Positions 1,716 through 15,821 of a stretch of 22,977 nt of DNA are shown piece after piece. A program made the position numbers and the translations under genes. How positions within the stretch are numbered: position 1 is the stretch's first letter; every line of letters starts with the position of its first letter. The notes under the pieces are model-generated. The model had not been told where the DNA came from. It ran no database searches and worked only from the letters and a program-made list of their open reading frames with translations. The stretch comes from a virus, in the IMG/VR virus record IMGVR_UViG_3300046777_000715, positions 1 through 22,977 of that record. One strand, written 5' to 3'.

Positions 1716-3962
1716 TTATCCGTTAAAACTTGCACCAGTTGGTAAGATATTGAAATCAATTTGAATGAATTCAGCTGTCTTAGTTGGTTGTAAGTAGATA
1801 GCTCCTTTAAGAATGTTTCTATCAATTACATCTGGTGTGTTATTAGTTTCATCCATTACTACTCTGAAAGCGTAAAGACCTTGTCTTTGTTGGATTGATT
1901 CTAAATAAGGATTAACGATATTCAAGAATCTATTTCTTGTTTCAGAAGAATTTTGTTCGAATACTAAATATTTTGAAGTTGAAGCGATATACTTTCTTAC
2001 AGTCAATAATAATCTTCTTACGTTGATTCTATCTAATGCAGATGGTTTATCTTGTAAAGTTTTTTGACCCCATACTACAATACCTTGTCCAGGGAACTGG
2101 CAGATTGGGTTTACTTTACCTTCGTATAATGTATCTCTTTCTGATTGAGTTACTTTATCCAATACACTTACTGCTCCTACTAAACCACCTCTATTTAAAC
2201 CTGCTGGTGCGAACCATTCTGCTGCTACTCTATCGTTTGCTGCGAATACACCTGGAAGTAATACTGATGGTGGGATTGTGATAAGTTTGTTAGTGTTTAT
2301 ATCAATAGTCTTAACATATGGATAGTAGAATGCTGCGTAGTTAGTATCAATTTCACCCGCTTGTGTTACTGCCTGTGCTAATGTTGTTGCTGAATCACCT
2401 GCTTCTGCAATAAAGAATGCATCTGCTCTTTCTTCAACCATATCAAGTATTGAAGTAAATACTGATGAATGTAATCTTCTATTTACATGCGGTGCTACTA
2501 CCATATTGATATCATATTCATCCGCGTTAGATAATGCTGCTATGTGTTTACCATAAGATGCAATACCTTCAGTTGATGCTGGGTCTACAACACTTGCTGC
2601 TGCAGTTGCTGGTGAATATCCATCAAATCCTTCTTGGAATGCTACAACGAATTGTGCTGAAGTTGAACCTACTGATAATGCTACTCCATTTGTTGAAGCT
2701 GAATCTAATCCAAATGCCACATTTGAACCATTACGTGCTCCTACTGGAATTGGTTTTAAATATATTTTATTATCATTGTTGAAATCTAAATCTATACCAC
2801 CAAATTGTGTTGCAGATGATGTTACAAATGATGCTGTTGGTATCTGTGCTTCAACTGGTATAGATGCAACTATTGGTAATTTATATTTTTCATGTCCAAA
2901 TGGAACTGCTTGAACAGGAGATACTGCGTTTAAGTTTGCAATTCTAATATATCTTGAATTGTTTATCCAATCGCCTGATTCGGTTACTTTTCCATTAGAT
3001 GCAATTGTTCTTTTTCTATCACCAATTACTCTACTGATAAAGTTAGGAGAATTAGGGTCTAAGTTTACATTTGCAAATGTTTCTAATACTGTCTTTTTCT
3101 TATTAGTATCAGCGAAATCTCTAACTGTTACTGTGAATGTTCCATAATCTGTACCATTTATAGAACCAGCTGCTTTTATGTTTGAGATACCTATTTTAAT
3201 TTTTGTATTTGCCGCATTACCTGCTGTAATTGTTTCAAATTGGAAAAGATTGTGTCTTTCACCACTTATCAATTGTGATTTAATCATTGGTGTTAAAGCT
3301 TCTTGAGCTTCAAATGTAAAATCTTGGTCATCTAAAACTGAGATAGAAGATGATACAGTTGCACCAAATGCAATTCCGTGATTTTTGAAAAATCCATAAA
3401 CATATCCACCTTTTGTACCTAATGCATTTGTTCCAAATACAGATTCGATATCATTTGTGCTGGTAGAATCAACCGATGCAGTTCCACTAAAATTAGTTGA
3501 ACCTGTTACAAACATAATGATATTACCATTACCTAAATCGTTATTTCCGTCTGTTGTTGCAGCTGAACCACTTAAACCGGTTGTTAAAGTATTTTTATCA
3601 GTTGGAAAAATTATAGCAACTGATGATGATACTAAACCTGTAGTTTGTCCAACTGAACCAGATGTGATAGTTATCAATAATGGATTATATCCAGTATATC
3701 CATCAACTCCGGCAGTTCTACAAATAGTTGCTACACCCGCTTCTCTTAAATAGTTTTGAACTGCTAATGGTGTATAATAAGTGTCATCAACTGCTCCAAA
3801 AAGATTTTGGAATTCAGCTTGTGAATTAACAATTGTTGGAACTAATGGTCCCTCTTTAAAAGGTCCAATGAATGCTGCACCAATATCAGCAATACCTTGT
3901 TGTAAGAACGAAAGGTCGTTTTCTTTAGTAAATACGCCTGGTGATACTAATTTCTCTGCCAT
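1716..3962 (-). CDS. Contractile tail sheath protein, T4 gp18 family
   Basis: This 748-residue protein is the outer contractile sheath subunit that surrounds the tail tube and shortens during injection. The N terminus (SPGVFTKENDLSFLQQGIAD, residues 7-26, then 'GAAFIGPFKEGP') is the classic sheath start. The C terminus from about residue 627 (VVWGQKTLQDKPSALDRINV, then 'RRLLLTVRKYIASTSKYLVFE') and the last part with ILKGAIYLQPTKTAEFIQID match the conserved C-terminal domain whose strands link neighbouring subunits. The protein is about 90 residues longer than T4 gp18. The extra length seems to be in the Ser/Thr/Gly-rich part at roughly residues 100-400, which in sheath proteins corresponds to variable surface domains. 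The ATG is preceded by AT-rich DNA without a Shine-Dalgarno sequence. A late promoter-like element lies 37 bases upstream, and the tail tube gene follows. Confidence 0.95.
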   Translation of the reverse strand: MAEKLVSPGVFTKENDLSFLQQGIADIGAAFIGPFKEGPLVPTIVNSQAEFQNLFGAVDDTYYTPLAVQNYLREAGVATICRTAGVDGYTGYNPLLITITSGSVGQTTGLVSSSVAIIFPTDKNTLTTGLSGSAATTDGNNDLGNGNIIMFVTGSTNFSGTASVDSTSTNDIESVFGTNALGTKGGYVYGFFKNHGIAFGATVSSSISVLDDQDFTFEAQEALTPMIKSQLISGERHNLFQFETITAGNAANTKIKIGISNIKAAGSINGTDYGTFTVTVRDFADTNKKKTVLETFANVNLDPNSPNFISRVIGDRKRTIASNGKVTESGDWINNSRYIRIANLNAVSPVQAVPFGHEKYKLPIVASIPVEAQIPTASFVTSSATQFGGIDLDFNNDNKIYLKPIPVGARNGSNVAFGLDSASTNGVALSVGSTSAQFVVAFQEGFDGYSPATAAASVVDPASTEGIASYGKHIAALSNADEYDINMVVAPHVNRRLHSSVFTSILDMVEERADAFFIAEAGDSATTLAQAVTQAGEIDTNYAAFYYPYVKTIDINTNKLITIPPSVLLPGVFAANDRVAAEWFAPAGLNRGGLVGAVSVLDKVTQSERDTLYEGKVNPICQFPGQGIVVWGQKTLQDKPSALDRINVRRLLLTVRKYIASTSKYLVFEQNSSETRNRFLNIVNPYLESIQQRQGLYAFRVVMDETNNTPDVIDRNILKGAIYLQPTKTAEFIQIDFNILPTGASFNG

Positions 3963-4031: not shown

Positions 4032-5792
4032 TTATGGTCTATATGTTGGTTGGAAATAATCATAAACTTGGTCGATTTCACTTGCACTCAATACTCTATT
4101 ATAAAATAGAGTAGGTCCTAATTGACATTTTGCATAATTATCAGCCCTACCTAATTTTATATCATATGTTGTTGTTGCATTAAATGCAGAAACTGTTCCT
4201 GTTCCAACACTTACACCATTTAAATAATATGCAATACCAGCTGCTGCAGATACTGTCACTGCCACCATATGCCATGTATTTAACGCCGGTGCAGTAAATG
4301 TTTGTATTGTATTTGAAACGGTACCCCTTGCAGATGAAAAATGATATCCATCCCAAGTTGATGAATTCGATGAATAAAGATAAAAATTATAATCTCTATC
4401 AGCACCTTCTTTTGAAAATAATCCACCAAATTGTGCCCCCTGATTTGCAGTTTGTCTAACCCATGCAATAAATGTCATAGCCGTAACATCAAATTGGGTA
4501 ATACCACCATTGATGTTTGAGTTTCTATCTTTAAACCAGAATGTTCCACTTCCATCTAATGTAAAATATTCATCAATTCTAGTTGCTCCATTATTATATG
4601 ATGGGGATGTTCCACTATATCCTGCAGAATTTGCAACTCCAGAAGGTCTTACACCCGTATTATACCCGCTCAAATCTAACCAATCCGTTGTAGGTGTACC
4701 CGTTGATGGTAATGTTTGTCCTGGGAATGAATAAGCTTTTGATGGGTCCAAATACATTCTTAAACCAGATGATGGTATAAATGGTTGTGTAGTTGTTCCC
4801 TTATTGTGTGAAATTGTTTTATTTGCTAAATAAACGTCATAGTTTTCTACATTAATTGTTACAATTTCAACATCTTCTATTATAGTATCAATATCGTATA
4901 CTTCAACTTCCGTTAATCCTGATATCTCATCAAATGTTACTACCAAATCTCCAGGTAGAACATCTTCCATATTTTTAAATCTATATTTTTCAATTTCTGC
5001 ATCCCATATGTAAATTGGATGTGTTCCAGTTGCTTTTATTAAACCATCATTTATTTGATAATATCCACTAGCAAAGTTAAATACTATATCGGAAACTACA
5101 ACTTCTTCATATGATCCCGTTGCGGTTTCTAACATATGAAATCTCCATTCAACATTTTCAGTTTCAATAGGTAAATCTTCATCAGGTAATCCCGCAGGTA
5201 CCCATGCTTTTATAGTATCTCCTACCGATAAATCTTCAACATTTACTTCCGTTCCATTTGCTTTTGTTACTTTTGTTCCAAACAATAAACAGAAATCAGG
5301 TTGGTTAATTGTATTATAAACATCAACCGCATATAATGTTTTTGTAGTTACAGTTCCATAATTTGTTGCATTTATATTATAACCATCTTGATACTTCATT
5401 GTTAAAACTGCAGATGCTTCCGAATATGATGATTGGTTTATTCCTGCAGGTGTAACTGGAACTATCGTAGGGCCGGTTGCAAATGTATTTGAACCTGTTG
5501 TAAAGTTTGCATTATTAAAAGAACAAGTAAAATTTGCTAATTGTTTTTGAACTTTATTGTAAAAATAAGAACCAGTTTGTGTAAATGAAAATTGTGCATT
5601 TTCCGTTGTGCTTTCAACTATGTAAGTATATGTTGGAGGAGTTACGGTTATTTCGTTTGTTGCAAAAGATAATAAATTCACATTACTACCTGCACCTGCA
5701 CCTGCAAGTCCACCCAATGATACTGCTCCCGGTCTTGCCGAACCACTCACTGCTCTATATAAGTTACCTAATGATAAGTTTGTTCTTGCCAT
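4032..5792 (-). CDS. Phage structural protein with internal intein-like Hint domain and C-terminal LamG-like domain
   Basis: This 586-residue protein has three parts. Residues 1-167 are an unrecognised, Gly/Ser/Thr-rich, probably beta-structured region with a Gly-rich stretch at 27-36. Residues 168-330 are a Hint (Hedgehog/intein) domain. It starts at Cys168 with CLLFGTKVTKANG then VEDLSVGD, has the TxxH motif T255-G-T-H258, a second '..VLPGDLVV' segment, and ends VYLANKTISHN at His329-Asn330. Residue 331 is Lys, not Cys, Ser or Thr. At 163 residues there is no room for a homing endonuclease. Residues from about 341 (SSGLRMYLDPSKAYSFPGQT) to the end match a LamG/concanavalin-like jelly roll with 'FTLDGSGTFWF', 'MTFIAWVRQ', 'NTWHMVAVTV', 'YYLNGVSVGTG' and LGPTLFYNRVLSASEI. 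It is likely a tail-associated adhesin that is cleaved or crosslinked at the Hint borders. The adhesin role is inferred from the fibre genes beside it. The start has no visible Shine-Dalgarno sequence. Confidence 0.88.
   Translation of the reverse strand: MARTNLSLGNLYRAVSGSARPGAVSLGGLAGAGAGSNVNLLSFATNEITVTPPTYTYIVESTTENAQFSFTQTGSYFYNKVQKQLANFTCSFNNANFTTGSNTFATGPTIVPVTPAGINQSSYSEASAVLTMKYQDGYNINATNYGTVTTKTLYAVDVYNTINQPDFCLLFGTKVTKANGTEVNVEDLSVGDTIKAWVPAGLPDEDLPIETENVEWRFHMLETATGSYEEVVVSDIVFNFASGYYQINDGLIKATGTHPIYIWDAEIEKYRFKNMEDVLPGDLVVTFDEISGLTEVEVYDIDTIIEDVEIVTINVENYDVYLANKTISHNKGTTTQPFIPSSGLRMYLDPSKAYSFPGQTLPSTGTPTTDWLDLSGYNTGVRPSGVANSAGYSGTSPSYNNGATRIDEYFTLDGSGTFWFKDRNSNINGGITQFDVTAMTFIAWVRQTANQGAQFGGLFSKEGADRDYNFYLYSSNSSTWDGYHFSSARGTVSNTIQTFTAPALNTWHMVAVTVSAAAGIAYYLNGVSVGTGTVSAFNATTTYDIKLGRADNYAKCQLGPTLFYNRVLSASEIDQVYDYFQPTYRP
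4803..5291 (-). other. Segment encoding the Hint / bacterial intein-like (BIL type A-like) domain
   Basis: The codon for the N-terminal Cys168 (TGT) is at 5291-5289 and the codon for the terminal Asn330 (AAT) is at 4805-4803. Both splice-junction motifs and the internal TxxH motif are present. True mobile inteins end His-Asn and are followed by Cys, Ser or Thr, whereas here Lys follows. That is the pattern described for type A bacterial intein-like domains, which cleave their flanks or splice inefficiently. The assignment to type A is an inference from these residues. Confidence 0.82.
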
Positions 5793-5802
5793 CTATTAAT
5801 GA

Positions 5803-6801
5803 TTATAATCCATTATAAATATCTAAAAGTTTTTCTTTCCACACTTCTTTATTTGAAAAGTGTTGTATCATCCAACTTTTAAGTTTTTCAAATTCTTTTT
5901 TACGGGTTTCGTAATCATCTTCACAAATTGTTTCGTAGGTTTCCTTAAATGATACCTTGTCAAACGCTTTGTATTTATAATCAAGTGGAACATGCCATTT
6001 TTCATGTAATATTGGAAGTTTCCCCCAATCCACTGCTTCAAAAATTCCATATCCGAATGGTTCATATTCAAAGCAAGAGTGAGATATTCCCCAATCAAGT
6101 GCATAGAACCTTTCTTTATATTTGTAATCAAATTTGTAAACTTTTGATTTTCCGAATCCGTATCCATATTTTTTTCTATAATATTTGTTAAAGGTTTCTG
6201 AATTTGTAAAAATAATTGATTCTAACTCATCTAAATATTCTACATTTTTTCTTCCTTCTACTCTAGCTGCAAATCCTATTTTATTAGAATTTGATAATTC
6301 TTTATTTTGTGTAAACTCATAACAATTTGGAATTTGATGTAAATTTTCCGTTTGATATGGAAAATTATATAATCCTACCCAAACTTTATTTTTTATTTTA
6401 TTTATTAATTCAGTTTCATATTCCCAATTACCATACCAATGCAAATATTCATCTTTTTGCATTTGCCCAACCATTGATACTTTCGTTAAATTATGAAAAA
6501 CAATTGAATCAATTTTTTCTAAATTATTATGTATTGCGGTTGTAGGTGTATAGTGCCCATGTAATATATGTATCTTTCTTGCACTCTTTAATATTTTGTC
6601 TATTTCCAATTCATTTGTTTCCCAGATGTGGTCTATATTGATTGGAAATTCCTCGTAATTATCTGGTTTTTTTCTATGGAAAAGGAGAAGTGGCTTCACT
6701 TCTAAATGCGGTGCCACTTCTTCTATCCATTTTGTTACCCATATATCAGCACCGCTGTTGAACCAAGGGCCTCCAGCGGTGGTATAATAAACATCATACA
6801 T
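5803..6801 (-). CDS. GT-B fold glycosyltransferase (GT4/GT1-like)
   Basis: This 332-residue cytoplasmic protein has no membrane segment. It shows a Gly-rich N-terminal loop (AGGPWFNSGADIW, residues 9-21) and, in the second half, GFAARVEGRKNVEYL (176-190), the usual start of the nucleotide-sugar-binding domain with Arg180 and Lys185. The E-x7-E motif of GT4-like enzymes is at Glu247 to Glu255 (EPFGYGIFE), followed by AVDWGKLPIL. It should transfer a sugar from a nucleotide donor; the sugar and acceptor cannot be read from the sequence. The gene starts 4 bases after the 1680-residue fibre gene and overlaps the promoter-like element of the next gene, so it is expressed with late structural genes. 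A likely acceptor is one of the Ser/Thr-rich fibre proteins, but host surface glycans or DNA remain possible. Confidence 0.82.
   Translation of the reverse strand: MYDVYYTTAGGPWFNSGADIWVTKWIEEVAPHLEVKPLLLFHRKKPDNYEEFPINIDHIWETNELEIDKILKSARKIHILHGHYTPTTAIHNNLEKIDSIVFHNLTKVSMVGQMQKDEYLHWYGNWEYETELINKIKNKVWVGLYNFPYQTENLHQIPNCYEFTQNKELSNSNKIGFAARVEGRKNVEYLDELESIIFTNSETFNKYYRKKYGYGFGKSKVYKFDYKYKERFYALDWGISHSCFEYEPFGYGIFEAVDWGKLPILHEKWHVPLDYKYKAFDKVSFKETYETICEDDYETRKKEFEKLKSWMIQHFSNKEVWKEKLLDIYNGL
5814..5822 (-). promoter_or_regulatory. Putative late promoter element ATATTTATA inside the 3' end of the glycosyltransferase gene
   Basis: An exact copy lies 21 bases before the ATG of the Hint/LamG gene. 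It overlaps the codons for the Asp-Ile-Tyr near the end of the glycosyltransferase, so the spacing to the next start is kept even though the intergenic gap is only about 10 bases. Confidence 0.45.
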
Positions 6802-6804
6802 TAA

Positions 6805-9800
6805 TTATAACCCTTTTTGTTTCTTTAAATCTGCTACTTCTAATTGTAGTTTTTCTATTTGTAATTGTTGTTCTTTAATTGCTTCTACCATAAGACCCAT
6901 CATCTTAGCGTAATCCAAACCTAAATATCCATCTTCTTTTTCTTTAACAACCTCAGGTAATACTGATTGAACTTCCTGTGCTATTAAACCTGTTTTAGGT
7001 GCTGCTTTTGTTACTTCATTCACATCATCATTCCATTCCCAAGTTACACCATTCAATGTTCTTACTTTTGCTAATGCGTTAGTAATTGGTTGAATATTGT
7101 TCTTATATCTTTTATCCGAAGAATAGTATGCTGTGATATCACCCGTTGCAGTTATTGCTCCGTTGATTGTTAAACCTGCGAAAGTTGGTGAAGATGTAGA
7201 TAACACCGCCTGATTTAAATATGTTCCAAATCCGGATGTTGAAGCTATTGCTATTTGTGCAGAACCTGTTACAACCGTTCCAATTGCAGTTCTAATTGTT
7301 TCGGCAGTTACTGAACTACCTAATGCTGTTGATTGTCCTGCAATTGTAATTGTGCTATTGGTTAATTTACCATTAGAAATTGAACCAGCCAACATAGCAT
7401 CGGTTACACCTAAGTTTGCTATTGAAATTGTTCTAGTAGTTGATATATCACCACCACCTGTTAATCCACTTCCTGCGGTAATACTAACTGCAGTGTGGTC
7501 AATATGTCTATTTGCAGAATAGTTTGTAGTTGCATTATGGTCAATTTGAGATGAACCTGTTACAACCGTTCCAATTGCAGTTCTAATTGTTTCAGCAGTT
7601 ACTGAACTACCTAATGCCGTTGATTGTCCTGCTATTGTTATAGTAGAATTTGTTAATTTACTATTAGAAATTGAGCCGGCCAACATAGCATCGGTTACGC
7701 CTAAGTTTGCTATTGAAATTGTTCTCGTTGCACTTATATCTCCGCCTCCAGTTAAACCACTTCCTGCAGTAATACTAACCGCAGTATGGTCAATATGTCT
7801 ATTTGCTGAATATCCTGTTGTTGAATCATGTGATACTTGAGATGATCCAGAAAATATTGTTTTACTTGCACTTGCTCTACCTTCATATGTAGTTGCTAAA
7901 GATGCAGTAAGTGTATTTAAAGATGAAGTGCTTTCTTCAATTCTTGTTAATCTGTTATTTTGGGATGTATTTGTAGTATCATTTGAACCTGTGTAAGTAT
8001 TCAATGAACTCAATATTCCAATTACTTGTGATGAACCCGAAACTACTCCACCAAATAAGTTTGCTGTAATTGAACCACCACTTATAATGAAGTCCACATT
8101 TGAACTATCAGTAGAAGCTGAAATTATATTTGCAGATATACCACTTAATTGTGTATAGTTTATTTGAGCTGATGCGGATACCAATGATGTTCCACTTGCA
8201 ACAAATGTTCCGTTTACAACCGTATTAGAACCTAAAGTAATTAATGTTCCAGTATCAGTAATATTTGAATCATTTAAATGTTCTTTGCCGGTTCCTTTTG
8301 GTATTCTATTGTTTGTAAGATATGTTTCGTTTCCTAAATTATCTATTGTTTCAGGTCCCAGTAAGAAATGTGAAGAAGTTACATTTGTTCCATTTCCTCT
8401 ATGAACAAAAATAAATTCATCTTCTACCGAATCATATAAGAATGAGCCAGAACCGCCTGCCGAACCTGAATCAAATACAGCGATACCACCAAATCTTACT
8501 ACTGGATTATTTACATTTAATTGGATGATATTATCACCAATATCTAAACGAGATGAACTAATATTTTGTATTGATGATGAACCACCTACTATTAAATCCT
8601 GTGTAATAAATAATGAACCTGTAATGGTTTGGTTTCCAGTAAAAATGTTTGTAGAATTTGTTCTCGCAAACGAACCACTCAATGAACCCAATGTAGACCA
8701 TTTAGTATCGTTAGAAGCGGTATATAATGCAAGAGTAGAATTTTTAGTTTCTAATGATGCGGTATAGCTTGCTAATGTTGTAAATTTAGTATCTACTGAT
8801 GCGGTGTATAATCTTAAAGTTTCTGCTTTAGTATTTTCAGATGCGCTAAATGCGTTCAATGATGAAGTGCTTTCTTCAATTCTTTGGAATCTTGCTAAGT
8901 TAGATGCCGTTAAAGATTGTAATGTAGAAAACTTAGTATCTACCGATGCAGTGTATAAACCTAAAGTTGAGAATTTAGTATCAACACTTGCAGTATATGT
9001 TTGAAGTGTTGCTGATTTTGTATTTTCCGATGCAGTAAAACTATTAACAGATGCAGTCCCAGCTGCCAATTGGTCAATTCTCGTAGTTTGTAGATTATTT
9101 GTAGTATCATTTGAACCAGTATAGGTATTTAATGAACTCAATATTCCAATTACTTGCGATGAACCCGAAACTACTCCGTTTGTTGCCGCAATTGAACCCG
9201 TAAATGAGTTTGCGCTTATTGCACCACTCACAAACATATTGCCCGCAATTTGAACTTTATCGGTTGCAGGAGTTGAACCACCCAATGAACTTACACCATT
9301 TCCAATACCAGGTCCAATTAATACATTACCATATGTTGGTTCTGATATAAAAACATAATCTGCTCCCGAATTAGATGGATTGCCTATTTCAAAGAAACTA
9401 TTGTTATCATATGGTAATAATCTAAATATACCATTTGCATTAGTTGTATCATAACTTACCTCAAAATTCTTTTCACCATTCTTTAAGAAATATAATGCAT
9501 TTACATTGGCAGTTGTATCTAATCCCAATGTTGCATCGTTTACAGATGTTGATATATATGCTGCGAATCCAGTACCACTACCTATTATAGTTTGATTACC
9601 AATAAATGTATTTGAACCGGTTGTTGAATATCCAAATGATGCTACTTGAGATGAACCCGATACAACACCATTTGTTGCATATATTCCTCCTACAAATCCT
9701 TCCGCATTTACTTGTCTAGTCACACCATTATAGTAGAATGAACCAGATGCATGAGTTCTTAAAGATATATATGAGTTTGGCGCTTGTGTTTCCGAAAATA

Positions 9801-11847
9801 ATGGATATAATGTAGTATCCGTTGTTGTGTTTGTTGTTACGGTTGCAACCGTTGCTGCAAAGTCTGCTACACCAATCAAAGGTCCTCTGAATGAACCGGT
9901 GAATGAACCTGTGTATGAACCTGTGAATGAACCCGATAAGTTTGGTATTGTTCTTCCACTTAATTGTAAACTACTACTAATTACACCATCTGTATCTAAT
10001 TTTGTTTTAATGGTAGTATTAATAGATGATGTAAATAATTCTAAATTAGAAGTTTCAATTGATAAACTTGCAGTTGCACTTTCTAAATTTGTTAATCTAC
10101 TTAAATTAGAAGCAGTTAAAGATTGAATTGTGGTAAATTTCGTATCAATACTTGCAGTATAATTTTGTAATGTATTATTTTTAGTATCTTGTGAAGATGT
10201 ATATGTATTTAAATTACTTAATACACCAACTATTTGTGCAGAACCGGATACAACACCCATTCCACCTGCTACTAAAATTTGAGATTCGCTTCCCAATCTA
10301 CCAGCTTTCCAAAAATCGTTTGTTACATCATATAAGAATGAACCTGATGTAGTTGTTCCACCTGTTGCATCTCTTACAACCAATCCACCATCTGAAGTTC
10401 CCGCTGCATTTAATACTAATATGTTATCTGCAATGTTTACTGTCGTAGAATCTACAACCGTCTGTGTTCCTTGTACAAAGAAATTACCCTTAACAGTCGT
10501 ATCTCCGTTTATTGTCACATTTACTCCACTCGCAGTAATTGCTGCTTTTAATGAAGATGTATAACTTTGTATATCGGTTAATTGTGATTGAACAGATGCT
10601 GTTAAAGTTTGTAAAGTTGTAAACTTAGTATCAATTGATGCGGTATATAATCTTAATGTTTCGGATTTTGTGTTTTCCGATGCACTAAATGTGTTCAATG
10701 ATGCAGTTGATTCTTGTATTCTTAAAATTTTAGAATCAACACTTGCGGTATAAGTTTGTAAAGTTGTAAACTTAGTATCAACACTTGCAGTATAAGTTTG
10801 AAGCGTTGCTGCTTTAGTATTTTCAGATGCGCTAAATGCGTTAAGTGATGCAGTTGATTCTTGTAATCTACTAACTTGTGCTGCCATTGAAGCAGTTAAA
10901 GTTTGAAGAGTTGTGAATTTGGTATCAACACTCGCAGTATATAATGCTAATGTTGCAGATTTAGTATTTTCCGATGCACTAAATGAATTCAATGATGCGG
11001 TTGATTCTTGTATTCTTAAAATTTTAGAATCAACACTTGCAGTATATGTTTGAAGAGTAGAAAATTTAGTATCTGCCGATGCAGTGAATGCATTTAAGTT
11101 TGTAGTAATATTTTGAGTAGCTATAAATTTACTATTAACCGATCCAGAGTAATTTGTTACATTTCCTATACCTACTATTGAACCACTAATATCACTTGTT
11201 GCAATAATTTTTTCAAAAGAACCAGTCGATGCTATTACCGATTGTCCTACAAAAAGACTTCCAGTTGAAACATATAAATTGGAAAAAATATGTACATGCG
11301 ATTGTGCTAATGTTGATCCTGAATCTATTCTAAATACAGAAGAACCTATTACATCATTGTGTATAGAAAAGTTTGCACCTGCTGTATTTTGTAGGTGATA
11401 ACTAATTCCTCTATCAGTATTTTTTAATTGTAATTCTGACCAACTACCTGACTCAATTGTTATAAGGCTAGCACTTATATTTTGTGCATAGACTGTTTTA
11501 TATCTTTTAGATGGTATACCAATATCAAAAGCATCATTATCTTTTGGTATTAACGATGAACTTAAATTAGCAGAAACAACAACCGTATCGGATGATTGGT
11601 CACCTATTGTAATGTTACCACCTAATGTTAAATTACCACCAATAGATGCATTTCCGGAAATTTCCAAAGAAGAACCAGATATAGCTCCAAATTGTCCTGA
11701 ACTAGCCGTTCCTTGCGTTGCTAACGTAATATCCCCACTATCTAAACCAATTTGTAATGTTCCTAATGTTGTGTTTACATATGGTTCTCCAAATGCTAAC
11801 GAACCTGATTTCTGTGCGGTTGTCCCACGTCTAAATTTAAGTGCCAT
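6805..11847 (-). CDS. Giant tail fibre protein with C-terminal peptidase S74 self-cleaving chaperone domain
   Basis: This 1680-residue protein begins MALKFRRGTTAQKSGSLAFG, a common N-terminal module of phage fibre proteins that probably mediates attachment. It then alternates heptad-length repeats of the TASVDTKFTTLQ kind (about residues 252-429 and 929-1062) with beta 'knob' modules (about 441-528 and 1076-1167), a GSFT/GSYT Ser-Gly-aromatic stretch, and a 97-residue tandem duplication near 1335-1530. The C terminus is an intramolecular chaperone of the S74 family. TAYYSSDKRYKNNIQP contains the Ser-Asp-x-Arg-x-Lys signature, with predicted catalytic Ser1577 and Lys1582, followed by GLIAQEVQSVLPEVV and a C-terminal coiled coil. 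In known S74 proteins this domain helps trimer folding and then cuts itself off just before the Ser. The start follows AAGAAGG, one of the better ribosome binding sites here. The glycosyltransferase follows directly. Confidence 0.9.
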   Translation of the reverse strand: MALKFRRGTTAQKSGSLAFGEPYVNTTLGTLQIGLDSGDITLATQGTASSGQFGAISGSSLEISGNASIGGNLTLGGNITIGDQSSDTVVVSANLSSSLIPKDNDAFDIGIPSKRYKTVYAQNISASLITIESGSWSELQLKNTDRGISYHLQNTAGANFSIHNDVIGSSVFRIDSGSTLAQSHVHIFSNLYVSTGSLFVGQSVIASTGSFEKIIATSDISGSIVGIGNVTNYSGSVNSKFIATQNITTNLNAFTASADTKFSTLQTYTASVDSKILRIQESTASLNSFSASENTKSATLALYTASVDTKFTTLQTLTASMAAQVSRLQESTASLNAFSASENTKAATLQTYTASVDTKFTTLQTYTASVDSKILRIQESTASLNTFSASENTKSETLRLYTASIDTKFTTLQTLTASVQSQLTDIQSYTSSLKAAITASGVNVTINGDTTVKGNFFVQGTQTVVDSTTVNIADNILVLNAAGTSDGGLVVRDATGGTTTSGSFLYDVTNDFWKAGRLGSESQILVAGGMGVVSGSAQIVGVLSNLNTYTSSQDTKNNTLQNYTASIDTKFTTIQSLTASNLSRLTNLESATASLSIETSNLELFTSSINTTIKTKLDTDGVISSSLQLSGRTIPNLSGSFTGSYTGSFTGSFRGPLIGVADFAATVATVTTNTTTDTTLYPLFSETQAPNSYISLRTHASGSFYYNGVTRQVNAEGFVGGIYATNGVVSGSSQVASFGYSTTGSNTFIGNQTIIGSGTGFAAYISTSVNDATLGLDTTANVNALYFLKNGEKNFEVSYDTTNANGIFRLLPYDNNSFFEIGNPSNSGADYVFISEPTYGNVLIGPGIGNGVSSLGGSTPATDKVQIAGNMFVSGAISANSFTGSIAATNGVVSGSSQVIGILSSLNTYTGSNDTTNNLQTTRIDQLAAGTASVNSFTASENTKSATLQTYTASVDTKFSTLGLYTASVDTKFSTLQSLTASNLARFQRIEESTSSLNAFSASENTKAETLRLYTASVDTKFTTLASYTASLETKNSTLALYTASNDTKWSTLGSLSGSFARTNSTNIFTGNQTITGSLFITQDLIVGGSSSIQNISSSRLDIGDNIIQLNVNNPVVRFGGIAVFDSGSAGGSGSFLYDSVEDEFIFVHRGNGTNVTSSHFLLGPETIDNLGNETYLTNNRIPKGTGKEHLNDSNITDTGTLITLGSNTVVNGTFVASGTSLVSASAQINYTQLSGISANIISASTDSSNVDFIISGGSITANLFGGVVSGSSQVIGILSSLNTYTGSNDTTNTSQNNRLTRIEESTSSLNTLTASLATTYEGRASASKTIFSGSSQVSHDSTTGYSANRHIDHTAVSITAGSGLTGGGDISATRTISIANLGVTDAMLAGSISNSKLTNSTITIAGQSTALGSSVTAETIRTAIGTVVTGSSQIDHNATTNYSANRHIDHTAVSITAGSGLTGGGDISTTRTISIANLGVTDAMLAGSISNGKLTNSTITIAGQSTALGSSVTAETIRTAIGTVVTGSAQIAIASTSGFGTYLNQAVLSTSSPTFAGLTINGAITATGDITAYYSSDKRYKNNIQPITNALAKVRTLNGVTWEWNDDVNEVTKAAPKTGLIAQEVQSVLPEVVKEKEDGYLGLDYAKMMGLMVEAIKEQQLQIEKLQLEVADLKKQKGL
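7262..7843 (-). repeat. Two tandem copies of a 291-base unit in the 1680-residue fibre gene
   Basis: The unit beginning GAACCTGTTACAACCGTTCC on the plus strand recurs exactly 291 bases (97 codons) later, at 7262 and 7553, with scattered, mostly third-position differences. Each copy encodes a module with 'YSANRHIDHTAVSITAG', 'SGLTGGGD', 'ISIANLGVTDAMLAGSIS' and 'STALGSSVTAETIRTAIG'. The duplication adds one structural repeat just before the S74 chaperone. Confidence 0.9.
8660..9060 (-). repeat. Heptad-type coiled-coil repeats, second block of the 1680-residue fibre
   Basis: This block encodes repeated 7- and 14-residue units such as TASVDTKFSTLG, TASVDTKFTTLA and 'EESTSSLNAFSASENTKAETLRLY'. 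Val and Leu recur with seven-residue spacing, as expected for a parallel trimeric coiled coil. The DNA units closely resemble those at 10560-11090 and in the 1307- and 660-residue fibre genes. Confidence 0.8.
9889..9936 (-). repeat. Four 12-base tandem repeats encoding Gly-Ser-Phe/Tyr-Thr units
   Basis: Four 12-base units of the form GAATGAACCTGT (plus strand) encode a run of GSFT/GSYT. A similar Ser-Gly-Ser-Phe run is encoded in the 234-residue protein near 16010-16040. Short Ser-Gly-aromatic repeats of this kind are common in fibre shafts. Confidence 0.8.
10560..11090 (-). repeat. Heptad-type coiled-coil repeats, first block of the 1680-residue fibre
   Basis: About 177 codons encode repeated TASVDTKFTTLQ, TASVDSKILRIQES and TASLNAFSASENTK units with lengths in multiples of seven residues. 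Many 30- to 40-base DNA stretches are identical or nearly so within the block and in the other fibre genes, which makes slippage or recombination easy. Confidence 0.85.
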
Positions 11848-11897: not shown

Positions 11898-14800
11898 TTA
11901 TTTATTTTCTAATTCCTTAACTCTTGCAGATAATTCTTTAACTGCTTGAATTAATACTGGAACTAATTTTACATAGTCTACTGCTAAATATCCTGATTCT
12001 CTTTCCATTACGACTTCAGGTAATACTGATTGAACTTCTTGTGCAATCACTCCCAAATCATGTCCTTTATGTGAATGAATTGTTTCAAATCCATCTTTCC
12101 AATCATATGTGTTACCACTTATTGCTTCAACTTTTTCCAAAGCATTAACAATTGGTTGGATATTTTCTTTTAATCTTTCATCGGATGAATAGAATGCCGT
12201 AATATCTCCCGTTGCTCTAATTTCACCACTTACACCACTTGCCGCAGTTCCGATTCCTAAAGAACCAAATTGAACATTTGCAGATGTATTTATATTTTGT
12301 GGAGTTGATAATGTTATTGCTGCTGATTCGACACCGTTTCCAGATACTACAATTTGATTTTCTGTTCCTGTTATTGTTGCAACATAATTACCCGATGTTC
12401 TACTTCCCAATGCAATATCACCCGTTGTAGATGATACATCTATTTGACCCGATCCAGATACAACACCACCTTTTAAGTTTGCAGATATACTACCACCGGT
12501 AATAATCATATCAACCTGTGCAGTATCCGAAGATGATGAAATTATATTTGCAGATATTCCACTTAATTGGGTAAAGTTAATTTGAGATGAACCAGAAACT
12601 ACTCCATCTAAATTAAATAATGTATCAATTTGTGCAGATGAAGATATAATTCCTCTACCTGTAGTTTCATAATTTGCTAATTGTCCTGAACCTGATATAA
12701 TTCCACTACCACCTGTTATAGTTCCCAATGTAATACTTCCACCCAATGCAACTGATGTTCCTGCAATTGATATAGTATTGTTTGAAATCTGTGTTCCATT
12801 TATTTGAGAAGAACCTGATACGATACCTCTTCCGGTAGTTTCATAATTTGTCAGTTGCGCTGCTCCGGAGATAATACCTCTACCGGTAGTTTCATAATTT
12901 GTTAATTGTGCAGCACCTGATATAATATTTCTACCTGTTGTTTCGTAGTTTGTTAATTGCGCAGCACCTGATATAATATTTCTACCTGTTGTTTCAAAGT
13001 TTGGTAATTGTGTAGAAGATGAAACGATTCCTCTACCTGTTGTTTCAAAGTTTGGTAATTGTGCAGAAGATGAAACGATTCCATCCAAATTAAATAATAC
13101 ATCAATTTGAGCAGAAGATGAAATTATTCCTCTACCGGTAGTTTCATAACTTCCCAATTGACCGGAACCGGATATTATTCCCATTCCATCTGTTAATACT
13201 TTTGCTTCAGTTCCTTTTTTACCAGCAATCCACATATCATTGGTTGCATCCCAAAGAAGTGAACCCGATGTGGTTGAAACGCCCGTTGCATCTTTTGTAT
13301 ATATACCCGATGTAGTAGCTGACCCACCATAGTTTAATTCTAATATATTTTCACCAATATTAACTTGTGTTGAATTAATTTGTGTTGTTGTTCCAACCAC
13401 TGTCAAATTACCATTAACTGTCACATCTGAACCCGCAACTGTTATTGCTGTTTTTAATGATGAAGTGTAAGAATTTAACGATGCCGTTGATTCTTCAATT
13501 CTTTGGAATCTTGCTAAGTTAGATGCAGTTAAAGATTGTAAAGTTGTGAACTTTGTATCAATTGAAGCAGTATAAGTTTGTAATGTAGTTGCTTTGGTTT
13601 CTAAAGTATTTATAGAAGTTTTTGCAGAACCACTCCATACATTAATATCAGCAATATGACCATTTATAGATGCGGTTGTTAAATTAATACTTGCAGTTGA
13701 TTCTTTCAATCTTGCAATAGTATCGTTCAAACTAGCTGTATATAAATGTAATGATTGACTTACTAATTGTAATGATTGTGTTGCCGAATTAATAGATAAC
13801 AATGATGCTTCCAATCCACCAGGACTTAATATAGTTACGGTGTATTCCAATGAATCCAATCTACCATCTACCGAAGTTGAAAATGGTTGGAATGTTGACC
13901 CAGTCCATGTATTAAATGATGCGGTTTGTAAATTTAAAGATGCGGTTACTGACTCTAATGTTGTATCTTTTTGTTTTTGAGAACCTGTCCATGCATTTAT
14001 GTCAGCAACGTGTCCGTTTATAGATGAAGTATAGATGTTTATATCAGAAACATGTCCATTTATACTTGCACTAAATGTATTTAAACTTGCAGTCGATTCT
14101 TCCAATCTACTTAATCTTGTATTTTGGGTAGTATTGGTTGTATCGTTTGATTGAGTATATAAATTTAACGATGCAGTTGATTCTTTTAATCTTTCAATCG
14201 TAGAATCAACACTTGCAGTGTATGTTTGTAAAGTTGTGAATTTACTATCAACACTTGCAGTATAACTTTGTAAAGTTGTGAATTTACTATCAACACTTGC
14301 AGTGTATAATCTTAAAGTTTCATCTTTTACATTTTGTGATGCACTAAATGTATTAAGTGATGAAGTGCTTTCTTCAATTCTATTTAATCTATTATTTAAA
14401 GAAGCAGTATAAGAATATAAAGATGCAGTTGCTGAATTTAAAGAACTTGTTACTATTTGAACTGCATTAAATTTACCATCAACCGATGCCGTATATGCTG
14501 CTAAAGTTGTATTTTTATTATCTTGAGAACTACTAAACGTATTAAGCGATTGTAAAATACCAACAACTTGTGCCGAACTAGAAACTACCGAATCTCCTCC
14601 TGCTAAAAGAATTTTTGATTCTGCATCTTTAACTCCCGCCTTCCAATAATCATTTGTAGAATCCCAAATTATCGAACCAGTTGTAGTGTTCGGTGAAGTT
14701 GGGTCTTTAACCCACAATCCACCATTTACTGCCCCATTACCATTCAATTCAATAATGTTATCACCTAACTGAACCGTTGTTGAGTTTACTGCAGTTGTTG

Positions 14801-15821
14801 TTCCTGCTACAGTCAAGTTTCCAGCAATAGTAACATTTTGTCCACTTACACCAATTGCCGTTTTTAGAGATGATGTATATGCTTCTATATCATTTAATCT
14901 ACTATTCGCAGATGCCGTAAATGTATTTAAACTTGCTGTAGATATTTGAATACTATTAAATTTAGTTTCAAATGAACCTGTTTTAAGATTAATATCTGTA
15001 ACGTGTCCATTTAAACTTGCCGTTGTCAAATTAATACTTGCAGTTGATTCTCTTAATCTTGCAATCGTAGAATCAACACTTGCGGTATAAGTTTGTAATG
15101 TAGTTGCTTTATTTTCTAAGGTTGTAATTCTTGTATTTTGTGAACCACTATCAGTTGATAATTGGTCTAATCTACTATTTTGAGTTGTATTAATAGTTTC
15201 ATTACTAGCCGTATATGCGTTTAAAGAACTTAGTATACCAACAACTTGTGCAGAACCAGAAAATACACCACCATATAAATTTGCAGATATTGAACCATTT
15301 GATATAATGATATCAACATTTGCCGTATCAGATGATGCCGAAACAATATTTGAACTTATATTACTTAATTGTGTAAAATTAACTTGAGAAGAACCTGAAA
15401 CTAATCCAGCTGGTAATGCTGCTATAATTTGTGAAGAACCCGATACTACACCATTATATGCTTTTATATTTCCATAAACGTTTGTAGCATATACATTTGT
15501 CCAGGGTGCCGATGTTGTTCCTATATCAATAGTTCCATTAGGTATTAAATTTGTTGTAAATTGACCTAAAGCTTGAATATTATCTGCAGATGCATTACCT
15601 AAATAAATATTTCCACCGATTCTAACATCACCCGATGCGGATATATTACCTATTAAATTAATATCGCCTATAGCGGGAGCATTTAATGGTAATAAATTAT
15701 ATGTAGTTGAACCACTACCAAATTGTATAGAACCACTACCCAAATGCAAATATAATTCTGCTTCTATTAGTGAAGGACTTGCGTTTGTGGAACCTCTTCT
15801 TAATGTAAATATAGCTGCCAT
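11898..15821 (-). CDS. Long tail fibre protein with C-terminal peptidase S74 self-cleaving chaperone domain
   Basis: This 1307-residue protein shares its plan with the 1680-residue fibre. An N-terminal MAAIFTLRRGSTNASPSLIE module is followed by a region with SGSSQVNFTQLSNISSNIVS-type sequence, long heptad-length repeats (about residues 200-310 and 435-785), two beta knob modules with NLTVAGTTTAVNSTTV and 'GDNIIELN' (about 324-412 and 794-877), and a run of 17-residue repeats (about 880-1008). The C terminus carries the S74 signature in ITAFYSSDERLKENIQP, giving predicted catalytic Ser1213 and Lys1218, then GVIAQEVQSVLPEVV and a C-terminal helix. It should form a trimeric fibre whose chaperone tail is removed after folding, leaving the repeat-built shaft and a tip just before the cut. 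The start lies 20 bases after a promoter-like element and has no clear Shine-Dalgarno sequence. Confidence 0.9.
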   Translation of the reverse strand: MAAIFTLRRGSTNASPSLIEAELYLHLGSGSIQFGSGSTTYNLLPLNAPAIGDINLIGNISASGDVRIGGNIYLGNASADNIQALGQFTTNLIPNGTIDIGTTSAPWTNVYATNVYGNIKAYNGVVSGSSQIIAALPAGLVSGSSQVNFTQLSNISSNIVSASSDTANVDIIISNGSISANLYGGVFSGSAQVVGILSSLNAYTASNETINTTQNSRLDQLSTDSGSQNTRITTLENKATTLQTYTASVDSTIARLRESTASINLTTASLNGHVTDINLKTGSFETKFNSIQISTASLNTFTASANSRLNDIEAYTSSLKTAIGVSGQNVTIAGNLTVAGTTTAVNSTTVQLGDNIIELNGNGAVNGGLWVKDPTSPNTTTGSIIWDSTNDYWKAGVKDAESKILLAGGDSVVSSSAQVVGILQSLNTFSSSQDNKNTTLAAYTASVDGKFNAVQIVTSSLNSATASLYSYTASLNNRLNRIEESTSSLNTFSASQNVKDETLRLYTASVDSKFTTLQSYTASVDSKFTTLQTYTASVDSTIERLKESTASLNLYTQSNDTTNTTQNTRLSRLEESTASLNTFSASINGHVSDINIYTSSINGHVADINAWTGSQKQKDTTLESVTASLNLQTASFNTWTGSTFQPFSTSVDGRLDSLEYTVTILSPGGLEASLLSINSATQSLQLVSQSLHLYTASLNDTIARLKESTASINLTTASINGHIADINVWSGSAKTSINTLETKATTLQTYTASIDTKFTTLQSLTASNLARFQRIEESTASLNSYTSSLKTAITVAGSDVTVNGNLTVVGTTTQINSTQVNIGENILELNYGGSATTSGIYTKDATGVSTTSGSLLWDATNDMWIAGKKGTEAKVLTDGMGIISGSGQLGSYETTGRGIISSSAQIDVLFNLDGIVSSSAQLPNFETTGRGIVSSSTQLPNFETTGRNIISGAAQLTNYETTGRNIISGAAQLTNYETTGRGIISGAAQLTNYETTGRGIVSGSSQINGTQISNNTISIAGTSVALGGSITLGTITGGSGIISGSGQLANYETTGRGIISSSAQIDTLFNLDGVVSGSSQINFTQLSGISANIISSSSDTAQVDMIITGGSISANLKGGVVSGSGQIDVSSTTGDIALGSRTSGNYVATITGTENQIVVSGNGVESAAITLSTPQNINTSANVQFGSLGIGTAASGVSGEIRATGDITAFYSSDERLKENIQPIVNALEKVEAISGNTYDWKDGFETIHSHKGHDLGVIAQEVQSVLPEVVMERESGYLAVDYVKLVPVLIQAVKELSARVKELENK
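12798..13185 (-). repeat. 51-base tandem repeats encoding 17-residue units in the 1307-residue fibre
   Basis: Successive units of the form GRNIISGAAQLTNYETT are encoded with a 51-base period. Two neighbouring units (starting near 12917 and 12968) are almost identical at DNA level, including a shared CCTGATATAATATTTCTACC. Outer units have drifted to GIVSSSTQLPNFETT and similar. A related unit, GRNVISSSAQI, appears near the N terminus of the 901-residue fibre. Confidence 0.85.
13470..14520 (-). repeat. Long block of heptad-type coiled-coil repeats in the 1307-residue fibre
   Basis: About 350 codons contain many TASVDSKFTTLQ, 'ESTASLN' and SINGHVSDIN units in multiples of seven residues. Several DNA stretches, such as the one encoding 'VDSKFTTLQSYTASVDSKFTT', repeat with 42-base spacing around 14200-14320. 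A shorter similar block lies at about 14880-15240. Confidence 0.8.

Follow-up and report, generated by a model that had tools for sequence, protein, structure and literature searches.

The closest described relatives of the domain discussed here are the A-type bacterial intein-like (BIL) domains, which lie in variable bacterial proteins and carry no endonuclease. Their chemistry involves a thioester at Cys1 and cyclisation of the terminal Asn, after which the thioester is either hydrolysed or attacked by the newly freed N-terminus, and without a nucleophile at the +1 position they mainly cleave and only partially splice (PMC4031507). The autoprocessing domain of Hedgehog also uses Cys1 thioester chemistry, and the pretoxin HINT domains (PF07591), which end in His-Asn, are believed to set free the domain that follows them. 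In Tetrahymena, BIL2 of the BUBL1 locus has ubiquitin-like flanks. In phages, three Hint proteins in the tail region of NCTB (BN7874_132/135/136) had already been annotated as intein-domain proteins.

The window, i.e. the whole stretch of DNA analysed here, is by itself a virus record of 22,977 bases from an uncultured T4-like phage. An ORF on its minus strand (4032..5792, as for all parts of this protein given below) encodes a 586-residue precursor, which consists of an N-terminal domain, a Hint domain (residues 168-330, 4803..5291) and a LamG domain. Among IMG/VR records, 307 stretches code for Hint relatives, and the loci fetched yielded 84 distinct complete homologues, 82 of which were used for counts. 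The ORF translation contains, in this order, C168LLFGTK, VEDLSVGD, ATGTH258P and TISHN330, followed by K331-G332, and there is no homing endonuclease in the 163 residues of the Hint segment. A sequence-only reading of this DNA had described the domain in the same terms (Cys first, VEDLSVGD, TGTH, terminal ISHN, then Lys, no endonuclease), and its coordinates proved exact. Cys168 (5289..5291) is the nucleophile at Hint position 1, block B reads Thr255-x-Thr257-His258 (5019..5030), and Ser328-His329-Asn330 (4803..4811) supplies the C-terminal cyclising Asn. Two further features had not been part of that reading: Asp319 (4836..4838) takes the place of the block-F His, and an invariant Lys331-Gly332 pair (4797..4802), devoid of a Cys, Ser or Thr nucleophile, occupies the +1 and +2 positions.

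In profile searches, the segment matched PHROG 38766, annotated as 'virion structural protein' (residues 143-332, 6e-10). In Pfam, Intein_splicing reached E = 0.076 with the single window protein, short of the cut-off, and NCBIfam gave no match. From sequence alone, the evidence for the Hint domain is weak, and since single-sequence Pfam finds almost nothing, the motif reading had to be checked against structure. In its AlphaFold model (14 sequences, pLDDT 86), the Hint segment adopts the horseshoe shape of Hint domains and brings its two termini together, so that the prediction of structure, which the earlier reading had proposed as a check, makes it clear that residues 168-330 are a Hint domain. 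The best Foldseek match is BIL2 (6y75, E 3.6e-8), and further matches include Hedgehog, the RecA intein and the BIL of C. thermocellum. The VIA-align Z-scores are 17.7 for the Mtu RecA intein, 17.4 for Hedgehog, 17.1 for the C. thermocellum BIL and 17.0 for T. thermophila BIL2, with rmsd values of 1.8-2.4 Å across about 131-136 residues. Residue 1 of the model (Cys168) superposes on the first residue of the intein, and residue 163 (Asn330) on its last.

With Cys at position 1 and the block B TxxH in 82/82 proteins, the family falls within the Hint superfamily. It shares with A-type BILs, exemplified by the C. thermocellum domain (2lwy, Z 17.1, rmsd 1.8 Å), the fold, Cys1, the terminal His-Asn, the lack of Cys, Ser or Thr at +1 (Lys in 82/82), and the absence of an endonuclease and of mobility. 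The type A pattern noticed in the window protein thus extends to the family, and the assignment as an A-type-BIL-like, non-mobile and domesticated Hint domain is supported by the fold, the invariant residues and the lack of a Hint-less allele. Unlike the A-type BILs, the window Hint resides in a phage tail-module protein, has Asp for the block-F His and a fixed Lys-Gly at +1/+2, and contains an extra insert of about 25 residues with a conserved W-x-P-x-x-LPDE. BIL2 has the same block order as the window Hint, but it retains the block-F His, with which Asp319 aligns, and the window protein has Phe rather than Gly at -1. The same Asp319, together with Lys331 instead of Cys, Ser or Thr at +1, sets the domain apart from class 1 inteins. 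Hedgehog (1at0) differs in that the window Hint ends in His-Asn and is followed by LamG instead of a sterol-recognition region. In comparison with pretoxin HINT, there is a lectin-type C-terminal domain and no toxin, and PT-HINT matches only 1/51 family members.

The residues of the presumed active site and its surroundings are remarkably constant. D166-F167, C168, T255, T257, H258, D319, S328, H329, N330, K331 and G332, and hence the residues flanking both junctions, are unchanged in 82/82 proteins, whose mean divergence is 30% in the N-domain, 31% in the Hint and 36% in LamG. The chance that five randomly drawn Hint positions are all invariant is p about 0.001. Median dN/dS is lowest for the Hint (0.27, compared to 0.30 for the N-domain and 0.32 for LamG); because many pairs have nearly saturated synonymous sites, only the ranking and the fact that the values are well below 1 are meaningful. 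The distances obtained for the three segments show weak correlation with each other (r 0.20-0.35), an indication of module exchange. Across all loci, counting duplicates, every readable N-junction is F|CLLF (184/184) and every readable C-junction SHN|KG (187/187). Probing with a 'spliced' sequence revealed no locus in which the flanks are joined; four matches that appeared continuous (L166, L173, L186, L189) all hold the Hint and SHNKG, and are alignment overruns. Together with the conserved gene order, the invariance and the lack of a Hint-less allele argue for a fixed protein part under purifying selection and against a mobile intein, as the earlier reading had presumed from the type A pattern. 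An efficiently splicing, selfish mini-intein that happened to reach fixation would explain why fold and motifs are common to class 1 inteins. We consider this extremely improbable, in view of the missing +1 nucleophile and endonuclease, the 187 readable junctions without an empty allele, and a location within a variable structural protein, not at the conserved site of an enzyme.

Instead, we think that the window Hint is probably a fixed, non-mobile, single-turnover autoprocessing domain in the style of A-type BILs, which excises itself from a tail-module lectin protein and frees or partly ligates the flanks. The cleavage reactions and their balance, as we infer them, would be as follows. After folding, Cys168 would attack the carbonyl of Phe167 to form a thioester, and cyclisation of Asn330 would break the bond before Lys331. 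The products would be a mixture of the N-domain (1-167), the excised Hint (168-330) and free LamG (331-586), and some N-domain would be ligated directly to LamG by way of the new Lys331 amine (1-167/331-586), so that the two halves would end up as separate or rejoined structural parts. This reading is consistent with the predicted fold, in which both active ends are in register, and with the constancy of C168, T255, T257, H258, H329, N330, K331 and G332 in 82 proteins at 31% mean Hint divergence. That Lys-Gly never varies at +1/+2 points to some importance of the scissile bond or of the new N-terminus. In inteins, the block-F His assists Asn cyclisation; with Asp in its place, the C-terminal step of the window Hint may be slow or conditional.

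The N-extein-like domain (residues 1-167, 5292..5792) is beta-rich in the full-length AF2 model (51 sequences, pLDDT 81) and has no family match; in the records searched it occurs as a single copy per genome, and every copy is fused to the Hint. The C-extein-like part (residues 331-586, 4035..4802) had been read as LamG. Pfam does not detect LamG in the window protein itself, but 39/51 homologues match PF13385 (Laminin_G_3) at E<=0.01, and the full-length model has a lectin-type domain at residues 340-582, which matches concanavalin-type lectin folds with Z 17-19, a cyanophage tailspike among them. LamG is also the most variable segment, with identity to the window down to about 45%, and the poor correlation of its distances with those of the N-domain suggests lectin swapping. 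In Flavobacterium phage immuto and related phage genomes, stand-alone LamG proteins have 220-240 residues, the size of the window C-part. A profile of the C-part finds immuto gp051 (E 8e-6) and gp050 (E 3e-5), both annotated as structural proteins; with just the window sequence as query, the match is weak (E 0.04). The two genes belong to a row of LamG-type genes without Hint (gp051, gp050 and probably gp049; L207 24719-27462). In both proteins 12 residues precede the GL motif, the same lead that a K331-586 fragment would have, and this agreement in size and lead would fit processing of the precursor. An internal start as the source of a separate LamG is not supported: M346, the first Met beyond the Hint, lacks conservation.

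The occurrence of LamG as stand-alone proteins in related phages would equally suit a Hint that acts as a protease only, separating LamG and perhaps the N-domain without ligation, comparable to toxin release by pretoxin Hints. The lack of a +1 nucleophile, the presence of PT-HINT among the Pfam families matched by relatives, and the predominance of cleavage in A-type BILs (PMC4031507) point in the same direction. However, Cys1 and TxTH, which the thioester chemistry at the N-terminal junction needs, vary no more than His-Asn, and one-ended release leaves this conservation unexplained, as well as that of K331-G332. The conserved N-terminal half of the chemistry thus argues against a pure C-terminal release device, and we regard cleavage without ligation as a rather unlikely account.

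The Hint gene is located in a T4-like tail module. Pfam and PHROG identify a T4 baseplate-type protein (264-1079), a tail tube (1180-1668) and the tail sheath (1716..3962, minus strand), which is the downstream neighbour in 163/166 loci. Directly upstream, in 141/144 loci, is a gene (5803..6801, minus strand) that looks glycosyltransferase-like by eye and has no match in a Pfam search; the remaining 3 loci are stored in reverse. The order of glycosyltransferase-like, Hint-LamG and tail sheath genes is conserved. Further upstream, 6805-11847 and 11898-15821 (both minus strand) encode very long, repetitive fibre-like proteins, each with an S74 self-cleaving chaperone at its end, which gives the gene cluster a second self-processing device; the first of these proteins also has a weak Mtd_N match. 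The earlier placement of the gene beside sheath and fibre genes was accurate, and from gene order and the LamG and fibre context we infer that the Hint-LamG protein is part of the virion; a search of the open-access literature found no published virion mass spectrometry for Hint-carrying phages. A relative with a 238-kb genome (G001) encodes a protein that is 94% identical, in identical gene order. Its terminase is closest to those of Flavobacterium phage immuto (54%) and Microcystis phage Mel-JY01 (52%), which makes a Bacteroidota host possible for the lineage. Neither of these two phages has the Hint or the N-domain. No homologues of the full-length protein were found in isolated phages, and no relatives were confirmed in bacterial genomes.

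The window Hint is nevertheless not an isolated case, and some phage Hint proteins had earlier been annotated as intein or Hint domain proteins. A search with the divergent family member L020 finds Hint proteins in the isolated jumbo phages NCTB, Erwinia pEa_SNUABM_32 (gp111) and Yersinia fHe-Yen9-02, in all three cases putative virion proteins, and in the uncultured LR756508, where a homologue of the glycosyltransferase-like gene (37% identity) also adjoins the Hint gene. Matches in a structure library also include a 929-residue 'Hint domain containing protein' encoded by an uncultured phage. No IMG/VR relatives of the LR756508 and NCTB_136 proteins were found. The jumbo-phage proteins resemble the window protein in their putative tail or fibre context, the His-Asn end and a non-nucleophilic or variable +1 residue, and, like LR756508, they carry Asp at the block-F position that is His in inteins and BIL2. 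They differ in phage lineage, in their collagen or Calx-beta N-terminal parts, and in the location of the Hint at the extreme C-terminus, which leaves 3-10 residues beyond His-Asn, or 2-10 once LR756508, with its equally C-terminal Hint, is counted. Judging from these matches, Hint modules recur in structural genes of large phages; what characterises the window family is that an entire lectin domain follows the Hint. Other arrangements were also seen. In two phage genomes, three tandem Hints follow an unidentified N-domain in one protein (L125 645-2942, minus strand; L126 1-2151, plus strand): the first has lost Cys1 and block B and kept His-Asn, the second is complete with a block-F His, and the third is without the His-Asn end. 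In LR756508, a portal-like gene (L117 634-3273, plus strand) is interrupted by several intein-like Hint segments, and the record has more Hint matches outside this gene.

The C-terminal Hints bring conjugation into view, in which the nucleophile of another molecule would attack the Phe167 thioester and the N-domain would become covalently attached, in a Hedgehog-like or BUBL-like manner. With so few residues after His-Asn, splicing would gain little, and N-terminal thioester chemistry is what is left; moreover, Gly directly precedes Cys1 in six of seven C-terminal phage Hints (the exception is NCTB_135), and a sugar-transferase-like gene is a conserved neighbour. In the window family, however, Phe takes the place of Gly at -1 and a full LamG domain follows the Hint, and no acceptor has been identified, which makes this explanation improbable for the window protein. 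Some relatives are degenerate: the block-B His is missing in LR756508 and NCTB_135, and Cys1 of the latter is uncertain. Together with the first Hints of L125 and L126, they indicate that some phage Hints may not need the full chemistry. Such losses, and the Asp in place of the block-F His, would also be expected of an inactive remnant, in which the Hint has lost its cutting activity and serves as a folded spacer. In the window family this is very hard to reconcile with a nucleophile, block B, His-Asn and residues flanking both scissile bonds that are invariant over 82 diverged proteins.

If the self-processing that we favour for the window Hint takes place, a phage structural protein would mature by intein-type chemistry and not through a prohead or S74 protease. 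The A-type BIL domains, for which hardly any biological role is known, would then have a concrete job, which could be approached in isolated phages. The window family also offers naturally fixed Hints whose +1 residue is Lys and whose block F contains Asp, which could be useful for protein-ligation chemistry. Finally, it is a long shot that large phages use Hint thioester chemistry for assembly, with Hint virion proteins covalently joined to a virion protein, a glycan or a surface; if true, phages would have a parallel to the conjugation performed by Hedgehog or ubiquitin-like systems.
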